NCBI GenBank assembly: GCA_021604865.1
Contig: BQJU01000040.1
Location: 1 to 64,000, forward strand
Length of the DNA: 64,000 bases
Direction: 5' to 3'
From: Saprospiraceae bacterium
Lineage (GTDB): Bacteria > Bacteroidota > Bacteroidia > Chitinophagales > Saprospiraceae
Position numbers and translations under genes: made by a program. Below, piece after piece: positions 3,446-16,878 of the stretch. The notes below the pieces were generated by a model, which was given only the letters and a program-made list of their open reading frames with translations, was not told the DNA's origin and did not search any database. How positions within the stretch are numbered: position 1 is the stretch's first letter; every line of letters begins with the position of its first letter.

Positions 3446-6196
3446 CTATTCTAAAATCAAAAAGGAGGACACCCGTTCCCGTTCTCCGTTTTTCATCCGG
3501 TAATAATAAAGCCCCGATTCCAGGGAGGCGAGGCGTAGGCTATGAATAAATGGCAATCCGATCTCTGCTTCCCAACTGGCATTATAAATGTTTTGACCGA
3601 TGACATTGAAAACTTCAAACTCCACCATAGGAGCAATCGCCTTATGCAAAAACAAGGTCAGCTTATCCCTGGTTGGATTGGGGTAAACCAAAAGATTTTC
3701 CCTTAGAGAGAAGTCGACCGCAATGATATTAGAATACAGGTATACGCCATCATTACGTACCCCTTTTATCCGGTAATAATTGGTGCCAATCATTGGTTGC
3801 ACATCCGTAAAACCGTATTGTCTTTCTACATTACTGGTCCCACTGGCCGAAACGGTTCCAATTTCACTAAAGCGGTAATCGGCTGACCGTTGCACTTCAA
3901 AATGGTCTAATTGCTGTTCAAAGCTCGTACTCCAGTCCAGCAATACTTTTTGATCTTCTATATCCCAATCTAGCGATAACAAAGTAAAAAAGGAGTCTCC
4001 ACAATAGGGATAAATTTCGTGTTCATCCTGACTACTTAGTCCGGCAGCATCGGTAACAGTCAGCCGGATACGGTACCAAAAAGTCTCATCACCACATCCC
4101 AGGGGGTCAATGATGACTTGAGATTCATGTTCATAGTCGGGTTCTTCCGGGTGGAAATGAGTATTGTGTTGTAAAAAGGTCTCCCATTTATACGTCAGCT
4201 CTGAATCATTTTGTTCAGCATCTTCTACTGTCGCTTTTAAAGGTAACAAAGTTAGGCCATTTGGTGCGTAGTGATCTCCATCCTGAAAACTACTTATGCT
4301 TACCTGAGGGGGGGTGTTATTCAAAGAAATAACCACCTCTGCATTTGAAGCCAGCCCCGCAGAATCTGTAACCGTCAAGACCACTGCAATAGAATCCGGA
4401 TTTTGGGAAGCCGCCAAAAAAGTGTGGGTGGGATTGACGGCCGTACTCGAAGTTCCGTCACCAAAATCCCAATGATAGGTAATCATTCCTCCATCGGGAT
4501 CAAAGGAAGTACTTGCATCAAAATTAACAATTAATGGGCTGGGGCCAAAGGCCTGATCAGCTATTGCTTGGGCCACTGGTGCTGGATTACCACCATAGGT
4601 AATTTTGTGGACCTCACTATCATATACATGGCACCAATAAATGGCTTCATCATGAGGATTATAAGTAAGGTGTACAATCCCCTTATCATCCCAGTGAGCG
4701 AAGGTATCAATCTGGGTAATCTGAGCGCTCTCATTAAAATGAAAAACGCGAATCCATCCACTTAAATCAGCATGAAAGAAGCCTCCCCGGTAGGTATCCG
4801 GAAATTTTTCTCCCTGATAGAAAAAGCCAGGAATACTGGTAAACCCGGGAAACTCAATACCCTCCACCGATGCCTCAGGGCTATTGATGTCCACTTCCAT
4901 TAATGCTTCTGTTTCGGGATCGAAGGCAGGAATTCTGGTTTTTGGAGGAGGATTCCACAACAAGCTGCTCCAGGTTAAAGCCGGAGGCGTATGGACAAAG
5001 GCAGGAAATTCCTCAGGAATTTCAAGGCCGTGATCACAAGGATTTAAGAAGCGAATTTCCGTATGTTCTTTGGGTTGTTCAATAAGATGTTGGAAGGTAA
5101 AATAGTCATCGTGGCAGTTGGGCTCTTCTGCAAGTGGATTGGGCGCATCCGGATTGGCTGTAGGTGTACTCACAAAGCCCCAATGGTAATTGATGCCTTC
5201 AAAAACCGGCCAGCCAAAACATTGCCCGCCCTTGGTAGCTATATTTAGTTCCTCCCAGCCACCGCCGCCTACATCGCCAATAAACAGGGTGCCAGGGTCG
5301 CCATCATCGGGGTTTTCACTACCCGTTTCAGGGATCAAGGTAAAGCGGTAAGGATTGCGAAAACCCAACACCCAAACTCTTGACCGCGCCGCAAAAGGAT
5401 CTGCACTATTATAAAATGGGTTACTGGAAATGCCAGCCCCGGTATCGGGATCAATGCGTAGGATACAGCCATTCATATTGTCAATTTGCAGGGATTTAAA
5501 AGCCCCTACATTGTCTTCTGGGCGTAGGATTCCTTCTTCAATGGCTTGTTCCCAAAAACTTTCCTCACTACTGGCACTACCGACGTCAATAGACTGATAA
5601 CTACCTCCATCGCCAATAGAGGCAAGCAACGTACCATCTTTTCCAAAAACCAGGGAACCGACTCCATGTGATCCAAGTAAAACAGCAGGTCCATCCGCTC
5701 GGTTAGTGCCCAGAATCACCTTTCGGCTTTCCGGGATGACTGTTGTAAAGCCAGTACCAGGGTCAGCAGTATAGCGGGTGATACGGCCTATCGTCGCTTC
5801 GTGATCGATCGTGAGATTAGGATCGTATTCCGGAGTACCATAAGCATCCATATAATGCCGATCAACAACATATAACAAATAGAAATAACCATTATTGATA
5901 AAATCAGGGTCGAGGGCAAATCCCAACAATCCGTGATCGCTCCAGTTAACCACTTCTTCAGAAATATCGATCAGGGGCTCACTTATTTTTTCCCCTTCAG
6001 TGGTGAGTATATATACTTTTCCCTTTTTTTCCCAGACGTAGCCGCGGCCTTCCGTATCAAAAGTAATACCAACAGGCCGTTCCCAGTCAGCCCCAACCTT
6101 TTCATCATAAAATTTATCAGGCAGGGAAGGCGTATTTTGACTCCAAAGTTGATAGTTAACCAGCGCAAGCAAACAAAAACATATAAAACGATTCAT
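3446..6196 (-). CDS. Secreted PQQ-type sugar dehydrogenase-like propeller with PKD and T9SS domains
   Basis: A protein of 916 residues. The start at 6196 gives a clean signal peptide (MNRFICFCLLALVNYQLWSQ); a longer in-frame start at 6247 would add 17 residues before it. Residues of about 25-560 resemble the soluble glucose/sorbosone dehydrogenase six-bladed propeller (for example WERPVGITFD, HGLLGFALDPDF, VWVLGFRNPYRF, IGDVGGGGWEELN). A PKD domain follows (WDFGDGTSS), then a second Ig/PKD-like domain and a fibronectin-like segment. The tail (LLVYPNPTRDKLTLFL onward) is a T9SS sorting domain. The family oxidises aldose sugars with a PQQ cofactor; whether this member does so, or only binds glycans, is not visible. 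Likely a surface-exposed or released protein. Confidence 0.85.
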   Translation of the reverse strand: MNRFICFCLLALVNYQLWSQNTPSLPDKFYDEKVGADWERPVGITFDTEGRGYVWEKKGKVYILTTEGEKISEPLIDISEEVVNWSDHGLLGFALDPDFINNGYFYLLYVVDRHYMDAYGTPEYDPNLTIDHEATIGRITRYTADPGTGFTTVIPESRKVILGTNRADGPAVLLGSHGVGSLVFGKDGTLLASIGDGGSYQSIDVGSASSEESFWEQAIEEGILRPEDNVGAFKSLQIDNMNGCILRIDPDTGAGISSNPFYNSADPFAARSRVWVLGFRNPYRFTLIPETGSENPDDGDPGTLFIGDVGGGGWEELNIATKGGQCFGWPVFEGINYHWGFVSTPTANPDAPNPLAEEPNCHDDYFTFQHLIEQPKEHTEIRFLNPCDHGLEIPEEFPAFVHTPPALTWSSLLWNPPPKTRIPAFDPETEALMEVDINSPEASVEGIEFPGFTSIPGFFYQGEKFPDTYRGGFFHADLSGWIRVFHFNESAQITQIDTFAHWDDKGIVHLTYNPHDEAIYWCHVYDSEVHKITYGGNPAPVAQAIADQAFGPSPLIVNFDASTSFDPDGGMITYHWDFGDGTSSTAVNPTHTFLAASQNPDSIAVVLTVTDSAGLASNAEVVISLNNTPPQVSISSFQDGDHYAPNGLTLLPLKATVEDAEQNDSELTYKWETFLQHNTHFHPEEPDYEHESQVIIDPLGCGDETFWYRIRLTVTDAAGLSSQDEHEIYPYCGDSFFTLLSLDWDIEDQKVLLDWSTSFEQQLDHFEVQRSADYRFSEIGTVSASGTSNVERQYGFTDVQPMIGTNYYRIKGVRNDGVYLYSNIIAVDFSLRENLLVYPNPTRDKLTLFLHKAIAPMVEFEVFNVIGQNIYNASWEAEIGLPFIHSLRLASLESGLYYYRMKNGERERVSSFLILE

Positions 6197-6236
6197 ATAA
6201 TAATTTGAATTAGATGCCAAAAGTAGACAGTAAACA

Positions 6237-6288
6237 GTCAAGATCAAAATTGACCTTAAGTATAACCAAGGGTCAAGATCAATTTTAC
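6237..6288. repeat. Pair of direct repeats upstream of the dehydrogenase-like gene
   Basis: GTCAAGATCAAAATTGACC at 6237-6255 recurs as GTCAAGATCAATTTTAC at 6272-6288, 35 bp apart. The first copy also contains the inverted pair GTCAA/TTGAC. It lies in the divergent interval between the dehydrogenase-like gene (minus) and the macroglobulin gene (plus), so an operator is possible. This is inference only. Confidence 0.4.
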
Positions 6289-6426
6289 AGCCGATTTATG
6301 TAATTCCAGTTAAATTTTGCATCATTAGAATGGTGACGCAGGGGCAGGGCAGTAAAAAAAACTAGAGATTTATATCCTGTCATGTCTCCTGCCAAACAAC
6401 TCTAATGAAAAAACAACCTCCAGCTC

Positions 6427-9400
6427 ATGATAATAACGCTACGCTCCAGAATTTTGCTCCTTCTTTTATGGAATGTTTTTCCACTTTTTAGTCAGATTCC
6501 GGCACTCACACACATTTACCAGATCAGCTCCGTAGATGCAGAAATTTTTTACCGCGATGACAAGGCCCAACCCACTGAGGCCCATTTTGGAACATTAATC
6601 GACTCCTTTTCCACACCAGAATACGCCAAAAAGCTCGCTTCCGGGCATTATCTTTTTGTCAAAGCCGAAAAAGAGAACCTGGATATTCAACTTCGAAGTT
6701 TTCATAGCTGTGTAGCATTAGCGCTAAATAACGACCGTGATCTGGCCATACAGGTGATCGATTCTACCGGCCTCCAAATTGCTAATGCCGAGGTGTTGTT
6801 TCGCAACAAAAAGATAGCCTTTGATTCACAGACCCAAACCTATCGCTTACGCAAATGGAATAAGGGTGGTTTTTTAAAAATAAAATATGCGGAAGAGGCT
6901 TTTTTTTATGAAGTCAAGCCTAATTCAAATGAAAAGATATTTCATAAAAAATGGAAGCGATTCAAACGGACAAAAGTAGGCCATGTTTTGAGTGCGCCTT
7001 TTCGGTGGGGCAAAAATACTTATCACTTTTTCAAAAGAGGATTTGGCTGGGGAGATTGGTCCATCTACAATCCGCCTTTTCGGCGCAAAATTCGTCCGTT
7101 TAAAGGTTATCTGGCGCTGAACAAACCCAAATTCCGCCATGGTGACACCCTTAAAGTTAAAGCTTATGTAACGCATGCCAAAGGCCGACCCTGGAAAGAT
7201 CCACTAGAATTAAAGATTATTGACACCAGGAATAAAACGATCCTTGAACGGACGCTGAAGCCTGAAACGCCCGGAGCATTTATGATGGACTGGGTTATTG
7301 GAGATACTTTGCAACTAGATGCTTATTACCACATTTTGATCAAACATCCGGAAAAGGAACGTTTTGGCAAACTCATCCATTCCTTCCGTATAGAAGACTA
7401 TGAATTAAATGAAATAACCTATTCCCTGAGTGCCAATCAGGACATTTACCGTCAGGATGAAAAAATCGTTCTAAGTGCGGAGGGAAAAGATGCAAATGGG
7501 TTAAATATTGCTGATGGAAGGCTGAAATTGGTGCTTATTCCTAACAAAATCCTCAATTACCACCAACCGGAGGTGCTCATTCCGGATACCTTATGGCAGG
7601 AAACCCAATCCCTCAAGGCCGGAGGGCCTACTCAAATTCTCGTGCCTGATTCTATCTTTCCAGCTGCCAGCATGGAGGTCAAGGTGCAGGCCAGTTTTAT
7701 AAATGCCAATGGAGAACTTCACAAGAAAAGTGTTCTCTTCAACTATTCTCGTCAAGAGGAAACATTAATAGCTCGAATAGATAGTGGGTTATTAATTGTT
7801 GATTATTTTATCAATGGGCAGCCGAGCCAGGGAAAGGGCCAGCTGAGCAGAACCAACGCCTCAAATCCCTATATCACACAAACCGATAGCATTAATTTAC
7901 CTTATCGGGAAAACATCCGGCCTGAGATCGAATTTTATCATATTCGCACCCATCAATCGGTCACCAGTTTCACACCAAAGATTGCGTACAAGAGCGGAGG
8001 CTTAAATGTTTCGGGAAACCGGCATGCTGATTCTCTATTTATTCAGTTAAACAATCCACAACAAATTCCGGTCACCTGGACCTTACGCACTGCCCATCGG
8101 CAACTGGCTACAGGACAGGTCTCAGATGTTGTTTTTAATATAGCGGAAAAAGATCAAATTACCGGACCGGTTTATTTTCAATACCAATACCTCTGGGGAG
8201 GACAGAGTTATAAATATGAAAAAGCCATTTATCGCTATGAAAAAATGTTGGATATTGAAATAGATCTGGCGGCGCAAATCACTCCGGGAGAAACGGTACA
8301 GGTCAAGCTGAGCGTAAAAGATCACAAAAATCGACCGGCTAAAGGGGTTAACCTGGTTGCCGGTGCCGTAAATACCCAATTTAGCAATACCCGGTCATTT
8401 AAAGCGCCTAGCATCAATTATAAGCTGGGTAAAAAACCGTTGGTATACAATAGTTTCCAACTTCAGCCTTTCCAGTCCACTCAAAGGTATCTGAAAATTG
8501 ACCGCCAATGGTTCCAACGACTTGGGCTTGATAAAGATCTATTTTATCAACTTCGTTTTTCCGACCAGGGCATTTATACACAATATGATACCTTGACACA
8601 GGATACTTTTTTTAAGGAAGTGGCCCAATTTTCACCTTATCTGATCAAAAACGGGCAAGCTCAGCCGATCTACCTGATTTATTGTAACCGTCAGCTGGTC
8701 TATTATTACAATACGGATCATCCGGCACCCTACAGTTTTGTAGGCAACCCTGGTTATAATCGCATTACGATACGCAGCCGTAATTTGGAATATACCATGG
8801 ATAGCGTTCTATTAAAAACAGGTCAAAAGCTGGAAATTGCCATTGATGAAAACCAGTATACCCAATCGCCAATCGGACATCATATTAGTAGAAGATCCGT
8901 AAGTAAAGAGTTGAATTCAGCAGAGCAAACTTCCGTAAAAAACAGCATTTTTGTATTACGAAAACAAGGTGGTGGCCAGCAATACCTATGGTCTTCTGAT
9001 CGTAATATCAATGCTTGGAACAATCACAAAGGAAAATCATTTTATAAAATTGGGCCTTTCCCCGCAGGAACTCAGCTGAGTTATCAGATTCAAGGTGGTT
9101 ACGATACCCGGTTTGAATTTGAGCCCGGCTATAGCTACGAATTACAGCCCAACCGGGAGCGGCTTTACCAATACACCTTTTTTCACAATAACCAGGCACC
9201 ACTACCCTACTCCCTTGAGCTGAAAATGCCGGGAGAATTGATCAATACCCCGTCCATTATTAAAAAAGAACTACCAAAGCGGTTAATCCTTCCTTTCCAA
9301 TCTGGATATGGGTCTGTCCGTCAAGGTTTGGGCAGGTACGCGTTTCAGTATCAACCCAAAAACCCCAAAGATTACCTATTGACTACCCTATTGGTTCCAA

Positions 9401-12093
9401 AAGACAATTTTAAAATTTATCGCTATTATCGCCCTTTTTCCCGCCAGATGGGGTATTTACCGCCAGGAGAATACGAGCTTTATTGCTTCAAAGCCGATAG
9501 TTCCTTCTTCCACAAGGAAATTGTAATCAGACCGGACACTTTATTGTACCAGGACCTGCAAAACATGACTTTTGAAAGGGATAGTCTGGTGTATAATGAC
9601 CTGATTCTAAACGCCAGCCGCATCAAGACAGAAGACAACAATAATCCACCTAATATTGGGCTCATTAACCCTTATGATGGCAATGGTCAATTAATATCCG
9701 GACAAGTAACGGACAGGGATGGAGAACCTTTGATTGGCGCCACTATTCTTTTGTTGGGTACTACGGTAGGAACCGTTACAGATTATGCTGGCAATTATGA
9801 ACTTTGGGTACCAAATGGACATTATGAACTCGCGGTTTCTTATATGGGTTATAATACCCACCAGCTAGCAGGTCAGTATTCAGGTCAACAGAATGTAACC
9901 TTGGAGGAAGGCCAGGCGCTTGAAGAAGTGGTGGTGACCGGGCTCCGGATATCCTCCACAAGAAGACTCTCCTCAACGGTAAGTGGCATTAGTGCCGATC
10001 CGATGAACATCAGAGGCTCAAGAGCAAACTCAACCAGTTTTTATATAGACGGGGTCAGAGTTCAAGGAAATCTATCAGGCGTAGACCTCCTTTCTGAAAA
10101 GCTTGAAGCCAGCGTACCAGATTTCGAAATGATGGGTTTGGGGGAATTGGCTAACAGCCTGCTCAACGGTATCCGGACTACCTTTCGCGATGATGCTTAC
10201 TGGGTCCCCAACCTGATTACAGATCAAAATGGGGAAGCTTTTTATACGGTTACTTTTCCGGAAGATATTACCAGCTGGCAAACTTTTGTACTGGGTCAGG
10301 ACAAACGACTGCGTGCCGGTACGGCTTTCGCCGAAACCCGTGCATTTAAACCCTTGATGGCCCGATTGAGTCTACCCCGATTTTTGATCGAGGGCGATGA
10401 GGTCAATATCATTGGTAAATCCCTGAATTTCAGCCCGGATTCCGTAAATATCTCCACCAGTTTTTCGCTGGGAGACCAGCTCCTTCAAACCAACCAGGCG
10501 GTTATTAAAGATGCCCTAATCGAAAAAGCGGCCGTAGCAGCACCAGCCGAATCGGATTCCTTACAAGTGACCTATGCACTAAGCATGGATCAATACCAGG
10601 ATGGCGAACAACGCAGTATTCCTATTTTCCCTCAAGGGACGATGGAAACAACAGGAAATTTTTACGCACTGGAAGGAGATACCAGTTTCACCATTTCTTC
10701 CTCCCCACAACAAGGACCAATCACCATCTTTGCCCAGGATAATATACTGGAAGTATTGCTGGAAGACCTGGATGAGCTGCGAAAATATCCCTACGGTTGT
10801 ATGGAACAAACCGCCAGCCAATTGATGGCCTTATTATTGGAAAAACAGGTTAAAAATCAACTCGGAGAACCCTTTGATTATGAAAAAGAAATCGTGCAGC
10901 ATATCGTCCGCCTGAAAAAATTCCAAAATCCCGATGGCTCCTGGGGTTGGTGGTCGGAAGGAACCGGCATCAACTGGATCACCATACATGTTATTAAAAC
11001 CCTGCAAATGGCCGAGGAATCCGGATATTCTACGGTAGCACTAGAACAGGGCTTGCGGTTTTTGACTAGCCAACTAAATGTACTACAAGAAAAAGCCTTG
11101 CTCCCCGTCCTTAATCGACTTTCAACTGCTGGACAAAACCTGGATTACGCTGTGTATTTGCAAAAGCTGGATACCTTTGAATTTGAGCTTTATGATCAGT
11201 TGCAACTCATTCAAATCCGGCAGCAACAAAACCTGCCTTATACCCTAGATTCTTTGGATAGATATCGAAAAACGACCTTATTTGGTAGTTATTATTGGGG
11301 GTTCGATCAATATCATTTACACCACAATCGGGAGTTAACCACGCTGCTGGCCTATCAAATCTATAAACACGAAAAGCAGGAAACCTTTTGTCATCAAATT
11401 CGCCAGTTTTTCCTGGAGCAGAGAGCTCAAAGTCCGATTCTTGGACGCCGATGGGGCTGGCGCAACACTTATGCAACGTCCTCGATCTTAAGCAGCATTT
11501 TACCGGACTTGCTCGATGGCCAGGAGGGCCGGAAAGCACTCAAAAACACCCTATCCATTAGTGGATTGGCCACTGAAAATATTCAAAAATTCCCTTATCA
11601 GGCGCAATGGTCTGCCGGCCAGGATATCCAGGTCCACAAGACAGGCACAGGGCCGCTGTTTTTGACCGCCTATCAGCAATTTCACAATACCAAACCTGCC
11701 CCCAAAGCGGATGAGTTTATCCTACAAACCAATCTTTTTCAGGAGGGCCGAATAGTAAAAAAACTGGAGCAGGGAAAACGCGCTACACTAAAGGTAGAAC
11801 TAGAAGTCAAAGCCTTTACCGAATACCTGATGTTGGAGGTCCCGATTCCGGCTGGTTGCAGCTATGCAGAAAAGACGACTTATCACCGTTATCCGGAAAC
11901 TCATCGGGCGTATTTCCGGCAGCATACCGCCCTCTTTTTCAAGGAAATTCAGCCTGGAAAATATACTTTCACGATTGAATTGGAGCCTCGGTTTAGCGGC
12001 CTATTCACCCTAAATCCGGCACGGGCAGAACAGATGTATTTTCCGGTTTTTTATGGCCGCAATGAATTGAAAAAGGTGGAAATTTTGGATTAA
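6427..12093 (+). CDS. Alpha-2-macroglobulin family protein with SusC-like insert at the bait position
   Basis: A giant 1888-residue exported protein (signal peptide about 1-22, no lipobox Cys). MG2/MG3-like domains lie in the first third (YLALNKPKFRHGDTLKVKAY near residue 220). The A2M core is clear from about 1245 (YWVPNLITDQNG, then FPEDITSWQTFVLG). The thioester motif is intact as YGCMEQ with Cys1458, so covalent trapping of proteases is plausible. Unusually, residues of about 1091-1215 form a carboxypeptidase-regulatory-like domain (GQVTDRDGEPLIGATILLLG), an EEVVVTG linker and a plug-like stretch (FYIDGVRVQGN), as at the N terminus of SusC-type TonB proteins but with no barrel. The insert immediately precedes the A2M core, where the protease bait region lies in classical members. 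The gene ends tail to tail with priA, the two stop codons sharing TTAA. The periplasmic or surface site is inferred. Confidence 0.88.
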   Translation: MIITLRSRILLLLLWNVFPLFSQIPALTHIYQISSVDAEIFYRDDKAQPTEAHFGTLIDSFSTPEYAKKLASGHYLFVKAEKENLDIQLRSFHSCVALALNNDRDLAIQVIDSTGLQIANAEVLFRNKKIAFDSQTQTYRLRKWNKGGFLKIKYAEEAFFYEVKPNSNEKIFHKKWKRFKRTKVGHVLSAPFRWGKNTYHFFKRGFGWGDWSIYNPPFRRKIRPFKGYLALNKPKFRHGDTLKVKAYVTHAKGRPWKDPLELKIIDTRNKTILERTLKPETPGAFMMDWVIGDTLQLDAYYHILIKHPEKERFGKLIHSFRIEDYELNEITYSLSANQDIYRQDEKIVLSAEGKDANGLNIADGRLKLVLIPNKILNYHQPEVLIPDTLWQETQSLKAGGPTQILVPDSIFPAASMEVKVQASFINANGELHKKSVLFNYSRQEETLIARIDSGLLIVDYFINGQPSQGKGQLSRTNASNPYITQTDSINLPYRENIRPEIEFYHIRTHQSVTSFTPKIAYKSGGLNVSGNRHADSLFIQLNNPQQIPVTWTLRTAHRQLATGQVSDVVFNIAEKDQITGPVYFQYQYLWGGQSYKYEKAIYRYEKMLDIEIDLAAQITPGETVQVKLSVKDHKNRPAKGVNLVAGAVNTQFSNTRSFKAPSINYKLGKKPLVYNSFQLQPFQSTQRYLKIDRQWFQRLGLDKDLFYQLRFSDQGIYTQYDTLTQDTFFKEVAQFSPYLIKNGQAQPIYLIYCNRQLVYYYNTDHPAPYSFVGNPGYNRITIRSRNLEYTMDSVLLKTGQKLEIAIDENQYTQSPIGHHISRRSVSKELNSAEQTSVKNSIFVLRKQGGGQQYLWSSDRNINAWNNHKGKSFYKIGPFPAGTQLSYQIQGGYDTRFEFEPGYSYELQPNRERLYQYTFFHNNQAPLPYSLELKMPGELINTPSIIKKELPKRLILPFQSGYGSVRQGLGRYAFQYQPKNPKDYLLTTLLVPKDNFKIYRYYRPFSRQMGYLPPGEYELYCFKADSSFFHKEIVIRPDTLLYQDLQNMTFERDSLVYNDLILNASRIKTEDNNNPPNIGLINPYDGNGQLISGQVTDRDGEPLIGATILLLGTTVGTVTDYAGNYELWVPNGHYELAVSYMGYNTHQLAGQYSGQQNVTLEEGQALEEVVVTGLRISSTRRLSSTVSGISADPMNIRGSRANSTSFYIDGVRVQGNLSGVDLLSEKLEASVPDFEMMGLGELANSLLNGIRTTFRDDAYWVPNLITDQNGEAFYTVTFPEDITSWQTFVLGQDKRLRAGTAFAETRAFKPLMARLSLPRFLIEGDEVNIIGKSLNFSPDSVNISTSFSLGDQLLQTNQAVIKDALIEKAAVAAPAESDSLQVTYALSMDQYQDGEQRSIPIFPQGTMETTGNFYALEGDTSFTISSSPQQGPITIFAQDNILEVLLEDLDELRKYPYGCMEQTASQLMALLLEKQVKNQLGEPFDYEKEIVQHIVRLKKFQNPDGSWGWWSEGTGINWITIHVIKTLQMAEESGYSTVALEQGLRFLTSQLNVLQEKALLPVLNRLSTAGQNLDYAVYLQKLDTFEFELYDQLQLIQIRQQQNLPYTLDSLDRYRKTTLFGSYYWGFDQYHLHHNRELTTLLAYQIYKHEKQETFCHQIRQFFLEQRAQSPILGRRWGWRNTYATSSILSSILPDLLDGQEGRKALKNTLSISGLATENIQKFPYQAQWSAGQDIQVHKTGTGPLFLTAYQQFHNTKPAPKADEFILQTNLFQEGRIVKKLEQGKRATLKVELEVKAFTEYLMLEVPIPAGCSYAEKTTYHRYPETHRAYFRQHTALFFKEIQPGKYTFTIELEPRFSGLFTLNPARAEQMYFPVFYGRNELKKVEILD

Positions 12094-14570: not shown

Positions 14571-14844
14571 TAGTACGCTTTTGTTTCAAAATCAGATAGC
14601 TATCACAAAGATACGAATATAAGCATAAAACTGATGCAACATAATTTTTTTGTTTATGGAACACCTATTTCTTTCCCAACAAAAAAAATAGTCATCTTAA
14701 TGACATTCTTCTATGCGTTAATTCTCCTTTTTTATCTATATTTGGCTACTCCAAATATCAAAGAAATATTACATCCCTATTTCTTGAATATACACTATTA
14801 TCCTAATCCAGTCTTTTCTTTTTTAAACTAAATAATTGTCTAAG

Positions 14845-16878
14845 ATGAAAAAACTTTACATCATTTTTTTGGGGCTATTTTTAGTCAACGCACTAATGGC
14901 CCAAATCTCCTTTTCAGATGACTTTGAAAGTTACACTGTAGATGCTTATCTCGCTGCATCTTCCAGCGATTGGACTACCTGGACAAACAGTCCGGGTTCT
15001 TCGGAAGACGTCCGTATTTCTGATGAGCAGGCTGCAAGTGGTACAAAATCTTTGAAGTTTGTTGCCGGTGCTGCTGGTGGTGGCCCAGCAGATGTAATTC
15101 TTAAGTTTGGCGATGTTTATGAGGAGGGCGATTTTGAATTTGAATTAAATATGTTTGTGGTTTCAGGAACCGGAGCGTATTTCAATTTTCAGGGTGCCGA
15201 TCCTCCAGGTTCAATATGGGCGCTTGAATTTGCCTTTAATGACAATGGCAACATTCTGATCAGCAACAATGGAGGTACCTTACTGGAAACCTCGTATACC
15301 CATGACACCTGGTTCAATTTCAGAATTGTAGTTGACTTAACCAACAACCTCTGGACCATTTACATGGACGATGTTGAACAAGGTTCTTTTGGCAATTCCA
15401 TCAATGTATTGGCGTCACTTGATTTATTTCCTTTTAATGGCAATGGTAATGGGACTTCTACTTTTTATGTAGATGATGTTTCTTTTGGTTATGAGCCTTA
15501 TGTACAGCCTGGTTTGGATGTTGGGGTCATCAATGTAAGTTTGGGAGGCGTCAAAAAACTGGTAGGCGCACCTGTGATCGTTAGTGGTGAAGTCAAAAAC
15601 CAGGGGATGGACGTGGTCAATAGTTTTGACATTACCTGGGGTGACGGGAGCAATAGCCACACCGAATCCTATACAGACTTAAATCTGGCATCACTGGCTA
15701 CTTTCAACTTCCAGCACCCAGTCCCATTGACTGTTTTGGAGGATGAAAATACCGTTACAGTAACCGTCTCCAATGTAAATGGCCAAGATGATGATGATCC
15801 AGACAATGACAATCGGGTAGTCAACCTGACCGGCGTCGTTCCGGCACCTGGCAAACATGTCGTGGTGGAAGAAGGAACCGGAACCTGGTGCCAATGGTGT
15901 CCTCGTGGTGCAGTTTTCATGGATTTTATGACAGTTAATTACCCGGATTATTTTGTGGGTATTGCGGTACATAACAACGACCCAATGGAGGTAACTGAGT
16001 ATGATAACGGTGTTAGCACTTTCCCTGGATTTACCGGATACCCTGGTATCATTGTAGACCGGATCAATGTTTTAGATCCCTTAGAGATAGAAGATGGCTT
16101 TTTTGATGAAATTATTAAGGCGCCAGTAGCGACGTTAACCAATGGAGCCGAATACAATCCTGATACCCGCGAATTGCAACTTTCTGTCACAGCGGAATTT
16201 AACACCGCAGTTTCCGGAAATTACCGGCTCAATATGGTCATTATCGAGGATGGTGTAACGGGAACCTCTTCAGCCTACAATCAAATAAATGCTTATGCTG
16301 GTGGTGGCAATGGTCCAATGGGAGGTTACGAAAACCTTCCCTCCTCAGTCCCTGCATCTATGATGGTTTACGATCATGTAGCACGGGCCATCCTTGGTGG
16401 TTTTGCAGGTCTGCCAGGTAGTCTACCTACCTCAATTGAGACTGGTGAAATCTATTCCAATTTCTTTAGCTACGAAATCCCTGCGGGGTATGAATACGAT
16501 GAAATTCAGATCATTGGTATTCTGATTGCACCCGATGGTCATATTGAGAATGCAACGGAAGTCACTATTGACGGAGCTATTGCTAATGGTTTGGCTGTGG
16601 GTACGGATGATCCGGCAATAACAGAAAATGACGTCCAGGTAAGTCCTAACCCCTTCCGGGAAATGACTACAATTCGCATCAATATTGCAGAAAGAGCAGC
16701 GGTCAACATTCAAGTTTTAAACACACTTGGACAAGTAGTTTCCAGCCAAAATTATGGTGAACTATTTGGACAGATTGACTTTCCTATACATGCCAACCAA
16801 ATGGATAATGGCCTTTATACCGTGCGTATCCAGGTAGGTAATGATGTGGTGAGTAAGAAAATAATCTTGTCGCGATAG
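14845..16878 (+). CDS. Secreted Omp28-like thioredoxin-fold protein with T9SS sorting domain
   Basis: A protein of 677 residues from the ATG at 14845; the TTG at 14836 would only add three residues. It begins with a signal peptide (MKKLYIIFLGLFLVNALMAQ). A concanavalin/LamG-like beta-sandwich occupies about residues 22-220 and a CARDB-like adhesion domain about 225-335. An Omp28-type thioredoxin-fold domain follows, with a CxxC pair (GTGTWCQWCPRG, Cys349 and Cys352). The tail from about residue 600 (VQVSPNPFREMTTIRINIAE) is a T9SS sorting domain. Likely exported to the surface; the CxxC suggests redox or metal chemistry, but the Omp28 family role is not established. A strong terminator follows at 16949. 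Confidence 0.85.
   Translation: MKKLYIIFLGLFLVNALMAQISFSDDFESYTVDAYLAASSSDWTTWTNSPGSSEDVRISDEQAASGTKSLKFVAGAAGGGPADVILKFGDVYEEGDFEFELNMFVVSGTGAYFNFQGADPPGSIWALEFAFNDNGNILISNNGGTLLETSYTHDTWFNFRIVVDLTNNLWTIYMDDVEQGSFGNSINVLASLDLFPFNGNGNGTSTFYVDDVSFGYEPYVQPGLDVGVINVSLGGVKKLVGAPVIVSGEVKNQGMDVVNSFDITWGDGSNSHTESYTDLNLASLATFNFQHPVPLTVLEDENTVTVTVSNVNGQDDDDPDNDNRVVNLTGVVPAPGKHVVVEEGTGTWCQWCPRGAVFMDFMTVNYPDYFVGIAVHNNDPMEVTEYDNGVSTFPGFTGYPGIIVDRINVLDPLEIEDGFFDEIIKAPVATLTNGAEYNPDTRELQLSVTAEFNTAVSGNYRLNMVIIEDGVTGTSSAYNQINAYAGGGNGPMGGYENLPSSVPASMMVYDHVARAILGGFAGLPGSLPTSIETGEIYSNFFSYEIPAGYEYDEIQIIGILIAPDGHIENATEVTIDGAIANGLAVGTDDPAITENDVQVSPNPFREMTTIRINIAERAAVNIQVLNTLGQVVSSQNYGELFGQIDFPIHANQMDNGLYTVRIQVGNDVVSKKIILSR

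Follow-up and report, generated by a model that had tools for sequence, protein, structure and literature searches.

A 64,000-nucleotide stretch of DNA from a Saprospiraceae bacterium (assembly GCA_021604865.1, contig BQJU01000040.1, positions 1 to 64,000; hereafter the window) contains a gene, at 6427..12093, for a thioester macroglobulin of 1888 amino acids in which the bait segment appears to have been replaced by the front end of an outer-membrane transporter. Sequence comparison and structure prediction place an insert composed of a SusC-type N-terminal extension (NTE), a Ton box and a plug remnant at the site of the bait in α2-macroglobulin (A2M) and of the anaphylatoxin in complement, and macroglobulins with this module form what is, from their sequences, a widespread family. 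The reading that we favor, tentatively and with a probability of about 0.45, is that the Ton box docks the protein on TonB and that the loose stretch behind it acts as bait. All features described below for this protein lie on the forward strand.

The gene is a single intact open reading frame (ORF), and its product is a true macroglobulin by those defining features that are open to sequence and structure comparison. The A2M core domain (PF00207, covering the second half of macroglobulin domain 6 (MG6) and MG7) was matched at residues 1257-1342 (10195..10452; E 1e-13, 50.9 bits against a cut-off of 21). It is followed by a match to the thioester domain (TED, PF07678) at residues 1440-1548 (10744..11070; 30.9 bits, cut-off 22), and the thioester motif YGCMEQ was read in the translation at residues 1456-1461 (10792..10809), with Cys1458 as its cysteine. 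The original prediction had described such an intact core and thioester, preceded directly by a regulatory domain and a plug-like stretch, and this description holds. The regulatory domain is the NTE (CarbopepD_reg_2, PF13715), found by Pfam at residues 1090-1170 (9694..9936) with E 9e-19; the NCBIfam SusC/RagA signature matches residues 1090-1195 (E 7e-26, 90.9 bits), under its whole-protein cut-off.

Directly behind the NTE stands LEEVVVTG, residues 1165-1172 (9919..9942). The EEVVVTG portion, residues 1166-1172, had been seen at the correct position but taken for a linker. In the SusC protein Bt1763, as described in the relevant part of PMC7782687, an NTE (Pfam 13715) is likewise followed by a Ton box, given there as VDEVVV or DEVVVTG, and given that the same motif follows the same domain, EEVVVTG is read here as a SusC Ton box. 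That account also describes growth defects on levan, like those of SusD loss, upon deletion or alanine replacement of the Bt1763 Ton box, which by nuclear magnetic resonance is flexible and not part of the NTE fold (PMC7782687); the RagA Ton box is described as identical across four types in the section of PMC11817032 that deals with it. With LEEVVVTG behind the NTE, the window macroglobulin thus has an NTE, a Ton box and part of a plug arranged as they are in transporters.

The plug piece, NIRGSRANSTSFYIDGVRVQG, comprises residues 1194-1214 (10006..10068) and includes FYIDGVRV at 1205-1212. Judged from the window copy by itself, its assignment is marginal: Pfam Plug matched residues 1184-1215 with E 0.033 in the full-length protein; the module taken alone scored E 0.0016 and 19.4 bits, short of the cut-off of 23.9. 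The call is secured by the Pfam Plug matches in 27 of 48 family modules and by a similar plug in a receptor of the same genome. This receptor, L275, is an intact TonB-dependent receptor of 1299 amino acids and, outside the gene itself, carries the nearest plug in the genome (51% identity over 37 amino acids; L275 letters VRGSRSESTNYYIDGIRVQG). The window remnant (IRGSR...FYIDGVRV) is closer to this plug than to that of SusC. L275 differs in that its plug continues (VITGG...YGDVTGGIISITTK) and in that a long C-terminal segment stands where the macroglobulin core would be. Receptors of the L275 type are, we presume, Oar-like. Recent capture of the module from a receptor of the same genome was considered for the window and is unsupported, the L275 plug being the best match; own-genome matches to the NTE region stand at 42% for the best E-value and reach 52% over 84 residues. 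Twelve TonB_C matches over the cut-off were found in this genome.

To place the insert, a model of residues 700-1888 was compared with known folds. The model had a mean predicted local distance difference test score (pLDDT) of 82 and a predicted template modeling score (pTM) of 0.56; a model of L164, a Mucilaginibacter relative, had a pTM of 0.50. Given that confidence in domain packing is moderate in both, the argument is limited to the aligned stretch, and most of the comparison falls within residues 1250-1888. Starting at about residue 1253 and running to 1888, the model aligns with A2M from residue 733 (7von), A2ML1 from 731, C3 from 744 (2a73) or 763 (8cem), C4 from 777 and ECAM from 964, with Z scores of 20.9-27.9 for the native forms. 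The NTE (1087-1159) was predicted mostly at pLDDT 80-90, and most of 1164-1246 at low confidence, which fits a loose stretch; in L164 the first part of the plug fell below pLDDT 50 and the later part lay at about 60-72. The candidate bait is accordingly the variable stretch between the Ton box and the core, residues 1173-1248 (9943..10170), with low pLDDT and the lowest conservation.

In the A2M superfamily, a single insert in MG6 comprises both linker and bait, in complement the anaphylatoxin takes its place, and Arg730 and Phe733 of A2ML1 are proposed to draw the cleaved bait end out of a channel, according to the part of PMC9156758 concerned with these elements. The two residues correspond to the RxxF of the window protein at 1250-1253 (RTTF, 10174..10185); the segment begins as IRTTF at residue 1249, with the letters IRTTFRDDAYWVPNL. 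In cleaved ECAM, the structural description in PMC4498604 has bait residues 923-942 unseen and bait-domain residues 947-963 becoming ordered. Because the alignment begins right behind the insert and the RxxF pair is present, the NTE-Ton box-plug insert is placed in the bait/anaphylatoxin slot with the firing residues kept. The position originally proposed is thus borne out by superposition on ECAM and A2M, which leaves the insert not far from the bait site. None of the results named with the original prediction as contrary to it was seen, although the packing of the model (pTM 0.56) is too uncertain to judge burial and no second bait loop was sought elsewhere in the chain.

The same architecture was sought elsewhere. 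When the A2M half by itself served as query against 396 genomes of the order, close relatives were found in 46 (E <1e-60, own count of the listing); with G108:C346 and G303:C514 left out, 47 relatives were extracted from these matches and those of an earlier search and, together with the window protein, scanned as 48 modules with Pfam. An NTE precedes the core in all 48, Plug (E 0.01) was detected in the 27 mentioned above with a best E of 1e-19, and the spacing from NTE to core varies from 38 to 178 amino acids. In L077, L100, L105, L081 and others, a SusC-like plug, end included, fills the stretch from Ton box to core, and the core follows directly; the ITTK-like plug end is exemplified by YGSRGANGVIVITT in L105. 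In a second search the query was an alignment of cores, and the best 79 named loci among the matches listed come from Saprospiraceae, Lewinella, Chitinophaga, Pontibacter, Mucilaginibacter, Pedobacter, Solitalea, Flexithrix, Prolixibacteraceae and others. After removal of duplicates from 127 BLAST rows, and of L163, L177 and L193 (fewer than 250 residues ahead of the core), 116 non-redundant members remained.

In this set the NTE was found in 115 of 116 members, a count that is partly circular because family members had served to build the profiles for NTE and plug; the 48 of 48 from Pfam is independent. By the same type of profile, 86 members have a plug match, 81 have a plug that reaches its end, with the macroglobulin core standing where the barrel would be, and at least 85 of the 112 plug-profile positions are kept in 71 members (more than 86 in 69). 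The short motif RG[SA]R...Y[IVL]DG.[RK] is present in 16 of 116 members, among them the window protein. RxxFx[DE] is present in all 116 and CxEQ in 115, with CNEH in L083. The named loci were found partly with a pattern containing C-x-EQ, which favors kept thioesters; the 47 relatives scanned with Pfam were not selected in this way and comprise 46 with CxEQ and one with CNEH. A lipobox-like start was seen in one of 101 near-full-length members by a simple pattern with mechanically chosen start codons. Two plug types occur in the family, SusC-like and IRGSR..YYIDG, and L108 has both in one protein. A chance or assembly artefact can be rejected because single open frames with the same domain order occur in many genomes, named isolates included. 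Complete plugs in a family of this breadth, and receptor fragments at the same place in a second macroglobulin family, go beyond the original prediction.

Some members stand out for their setting. Two family members adjoin in Pedobacter ginsengisoli (L195:4167-15777) and in Chitinophaga dinghuensis (L206:2-9890), and the modules of the Pedobacter pair differ far more than their cores. One member, L157, lies on a contig titled Thalassovita, a proteobacterium; this label of a metagenome-assembled genome (MAG) is doubtful because the module groups with rows from Prolixibacteraceae and Saprospiraceae.

Within the module, the Ton box is the best-kept stretch. Among the 69 full-plug members, mean pairwise identity was highest in the Ton box (0.75), followed by the core (0.42), the plug (0.40) and the NTE (0.34). 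The corresponding values for 23 transporter N-termini were 0.72 (Ton box), 0.46 (NTE) and 0.40 (plug); these transporters comprise loci from an earlier genome search and one window ORF, were picked with family-built profiles and lie mostly on partial loci, "SusC" being our own label for them. The ranking persists in the 29 members without a detectable plug (Ton box 0.60, NTE 0.33, stretch behind the Ton box 0.24). Individual positions are kept in most members (L1165 in 109 of 114, E1167 in 102, and V1168, V1169 and V1170 in 100 each), and five Ton-box positions are among the eleven best-kept columns of NTE and Ton box. The pattern L.[ED][VI][VI][VI] was counted in 93 of 115 aligned members; without alignment, 99 of 116 members carry a loose Ton-box pattern and 89 the strict form E[VI]V[VI]. 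A flexible Ton box conserved while its neighbors drift argues for a binding partner, of which TonB is the known one.

The sequence data further indicate that the module is old and partly congruent with the core. Distances in module and core correlate across the 69 members (core-NTE r 0.42, core-plug r 0.37), with none of 999 permutations as high, and one origin of the 69 full-plug modules as against the 23 transporters was not rejected (p-AU, from the approximately unbiased test, 0.586), although the tree carries stars on only 14 of its 89 inner branches and, in its free form, needs three changes of label. Ratios of nonsynonymous to synonymous divergence (dN/dS) were obtained from 11 close pairs, some with a member in common. 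For the stretch from Ton box to core the ratio was 0.09-0.39 in nine pairs, 0.83 in a nearly identical pair and undefined in one, consistent with purifying selection on the module in most pairs tested. Module dN exceeded core dN in 10 of the 11 pairs. The exception was L172/L175, both from Chitinophagaceae MAGs, in which synonymous divergence is ∼0.93 in the core and 0.02-0.09 in the module, a pattern that suggests a recent exchange of the module.

A second, common macroglobulin family (143 of 248 genomes) was sampled for related material. The 150-180 residues ahead of the core were taken from 70 members (58 of 60 fetched, L233 and L246 being dropped because the core pattern failed, and 12 found earlier). 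An NTE-containing profile matched 14 of 70 of these baits and 16 of 210 control segments at its loosest cut, and 3 of 70 and 3 of 210 at E 1. As this version also matched controls, the profile was narrowed to the Ton box plus plug of the 23 transporters, with the database size fixed at 1000. At E 10 it matched 13 of the 70 baits, whereas among the controls it matched none of 210 segments from elsewhere in these proteins, 23 of 7000 shuffles and none of 70 reversed sequences; at E 50 the counts were 18 baits, 12 controls, 139 shuffles and one reversed sequence. Given that only 5, 3 and 2 baits remain at E 1, 0.1 and 0.01, most of these short fragments are individually weak, and several are plug pieces that lack a Ton box. 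Pfam, applied to 58 of the baits, assigned Plug in one and gave a marginal unrelated match in another; the bait of L250:1873-2472 contains a sizeable portion of a plug, which scores 25.4 bits with Pfam Plug (cut-off 23.9). The own-genome member of this family, L034, is not among the profile matches. The bait segments of the family (L211-L270) are fast-changing, and many are rich in Ala, Pro and Met.

A different replacement was found in L147, from a Cytophagaceae MAG, in which a PorG/DUF6089-like outer-membrane barrel (L147:7005-7997, residues 1056-1386 of ORF 3840-9887) takes the place of the whole module on a single MAG contig. The barrel scored E 4.5e-19 and 69 bits against the NCBIfam PorG cut-off of 130, and 32.4 bits with Pfam DUF6089 (cut-off 23.2). 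Taken together, the fragments in the second family and the L147 barrel indicate that the bait slot has been filled more than once with pieces of outer-membrane proteins. In L081:4435-17924 (genome G319), a gene of the first family and one resembling the second lie ∼4 kb apart. In a third macroglobulin group (L116 and L117), a regulatory-like domain seems, by eye, to stand ahead of the A2M core (profile E 1.2 and 1.9); in L116 it is followed by LEAVTVAGTRSSKKRR, a Ton-box-like stretch.

The favored reading can be put as a minimal scheme. The front end of a TonB-dependent transporter, with NTE, Ton box and plug, stands in place of the bait; the plug is nearly complete in most relatives and short in the window protein. 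The Ton box may bind the C-terminal domain of TonB, so that the macroglobulin would be docked on the energised TonB-ExbBD complex, and this docking could stand in for the membrane anchor of the E. coli protein. Proteases entering the periplasm would then cut the loose stretch between Ton box and core, and the cut would free the RxxF end, let the thioester domain swing out and cause the protease to be bound covalently, as in A2ML1 and ECAM. For the window protein, docking, cleavage and trapping are each inferred. The original prediction had raised a tie to a TonB/SusC-type surface complex. The conservation of the Ton box, above that of every other part of the module, makes a link to the TonB system likely; a stable complex of the SusC type finds no support, as neither SusC nor SusD was found among the nearest ORFs scanned and no neighbor is conserved family-wide.

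Several observations weigh against docking. In the window protein residue 1173, directly behind the Ton box, is leucine, where 96 of 114 members have tyrosine; 22 of 115 members depart from the aligned Ton-box pattern, and identity over six columns is easily inflated when these are so few and so rich in valine. The distance (Mantel) correlations are moderate, and the close pairs L155/L159 and the two L195 copies have discordant modules. The family is patchy, with close relatives in the 46 of 396 genomes of the order and, at E 1e-50, in 5 of 296 of a phylum sample. To these may be added the Ton-box-less plug pieces of the second family and the L147 barrel. The last two are better explained if the bait is an integrated decoy that imitates outer-membrane proteins, so that proteases attacking those proteins would cut the copy and be caught, and TonB binding would be unnecessary. 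The two plug types of the family, both present in L108, the excess of matches at the second-family bait over control segments, with the large plug part in L250, and the higher dN of the module in 10 of 11 pairs all agree with such imitation. It does not predict that a flexible Ton box should be kept above the rest of the module, even in members without a detectable plug, and the partly congruent trees, with one origin not rejected, argue that wholesale swapping of modules is not the rule. We know of no protease that attacks the decoy. Thus a decoy accounts better than TonB docking for the second family and L147 and worse for Ton box conservation; both can hold, and as the explanation of the module the decoy, the main rival to docking, seems to us rather unlikely.

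More active use of TonB can be envisaged, whereby its pull unfolds the plug or shifts the bait end and the proton motive force arms or fires the thioester. The plug does lie between Ton box and trigger residues in the chain, at least 85 of the 112 plug-profile positions are kept in 71 of 116 members, and the pertinent passages of PMC7782687 and PMC11817032 hold that TonB unfolds or removes the plugs of transporters. This gating is decidedly unlikely, given that 29 of 115 members, the window protein included, have no plug detectable by the profile used, and that in A2ML1, to judge from the trigger described in PMC9156758, firing is a retraction after cutting, which pulling at the bait side might impede. 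A passenger role is quite unlikely, too; the module would then be a chance insertion of long standing, tolerated as a spacer or as ordinary bait and unconnected with TonB or with proteases that target receptors. The great variation in sequence and length between NTE and core would suit a spacer, receptor-like matches are numerous enough in these genomes to donate sequence by chance, and an exchange is suggested for L172/L175. The NTE is nevertheless kept in all but one member, the dN/dS values from Ton box to core are low in 9 of 11 pairs, the Ton box is conserved as in real transporters, and similar material recurs in the second family. Finally, the plug might seat in trans in an empty transporter barrel, with the macroglobulin hanging under the outer membrane. 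The plugs that reach the profile end in 81 of 116 members and the barrel in L147 are compatible with this; many plugs, that of the window protein among them, would be too short to fill a barrel, and the family lacks a conserved neighbor and thus a partner barrel gene next door, which makes seating of this kind highly improbable. On the boldest reading, the protein would be a complement-like trap powered by the proton motive force: TonB would grip the Ton box and unfold or drag the plug, and exposure of the bait or firing of the thioester would depend on an energised inner membrane. Bacteroidota would, in addition, have repeatedly built macroglobulin baits from pieces of outer-membrane proteins, so that an attacker of those proteins would run into the trap. 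This combined proposal we regard as unlikely.

Among systems already described, the E. coli protein ECAM/YfhM and the Salmonella protein SaA2M, both bacterial α2-macroglobulins, likewise have a macroglobulin core, a thioester domain with CxEQ and a bait before the second half of MG6, and both aligned with Z 20.9 over 605 residues (5a42 and 4u48). Where the ECAM bait is disordered, the window protein has the NTE, Ton box and plug remnant, and whereas ECAM is, in the description given by PMC4498604, a lipoprotein on the inner membrane, with Pbp1C named as its partner, the window protein has no lipobox. Human A2ML1, A2M, C3 and C4 (Z about 25-28, native forms) share an MG6 insert, bait or anaphylatoxin, followed by the RxxF trigger; they differ in that the window insert is the front end of a bacterial transporter and in the thioester, which is CMEQ in the window protein and CGEQ in theirs. 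SusC/RagA proteins (Bt1763, RagA) have PF13715, Ton box and plug in the same order. The plug fragment of the window protein, under the Pfam cut-off by itself, runs into the macroglobulin core; because the protein has no β-barrel and no SusD was found next door, it is not a SusC transporter. By title and abstract, no macroglobulin with a transporter module at the trigger site was found in the open-access literature searched.

If the Ton box works, the protein would be a periplasmic protease trap wired to an energised envelope machine that, to our knowledge, is so far known for transport. If the decoy bait is true, bacteria would be using in a relative of complement the integrated decoy trick known from plant immune receptors. 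The module also offers a tangible way into the question of what bacterial macroglobulins protect against, and it carries a warning for annotation, as L164 passes the NCBI SusC/RagA signature (51.3 bits, cut-off 46.2) yet is a macroglobulin.

Residues 1-23 of the window protein (6427..6495; MIITLRSRILLLLLWNVFPLFSQ) form a hydrophobic leader that, judged by eye from the translation, resembles a type I signal peptide, with no lipobox seen, and the protein is probably secreted and periplasmic. An MG2 domain was matched at residues 227-295 (7105..7311; Pfam 30.3 bits, slightly under the cut-off of 32.8) and a bacterial MG10 domain (bMG10), over the Pfam cut-off, at residues 1778-1873 (11758..12045). 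The genome has two more macroglobulins, L034 (2040 amino acids) and L035 (1865 amino acids); L035 matches bMG3, bMG5, bMG6 and a bait-region domain.

No neighbor is conserved around 66 family genes, sharing being limited to small groups (largest cluster 9 loci), and neither an operon partner nor a companion barrel was found in these neighborhoods. The E. coli ECAM/YfhM gene adjoins pbpC; pbpC is not among the named neighbors of the window gene. These encode an M12B-type peptidase, a glucose/sorbosone dehydrogenase (GSDH)/PKD protein, PriA, an Omp28-type protein and an FGE-sulfatase protein, and two further small ORFs have no Pfam match. Proteins with Por_Secre_tail, the C-terminal sorting domain of type IX secretion, are encoded at 276-2279, 3446-6247 and 14836-16878; the carriers are the M12B-type metallopeptidase, the dehydrogenase with PKD domains and the Omp28-type protein. 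The last 4 bases of the macroglobulin gene, 12090-12093 of the window, are shared with the 3′ end of priA, which converges on it.

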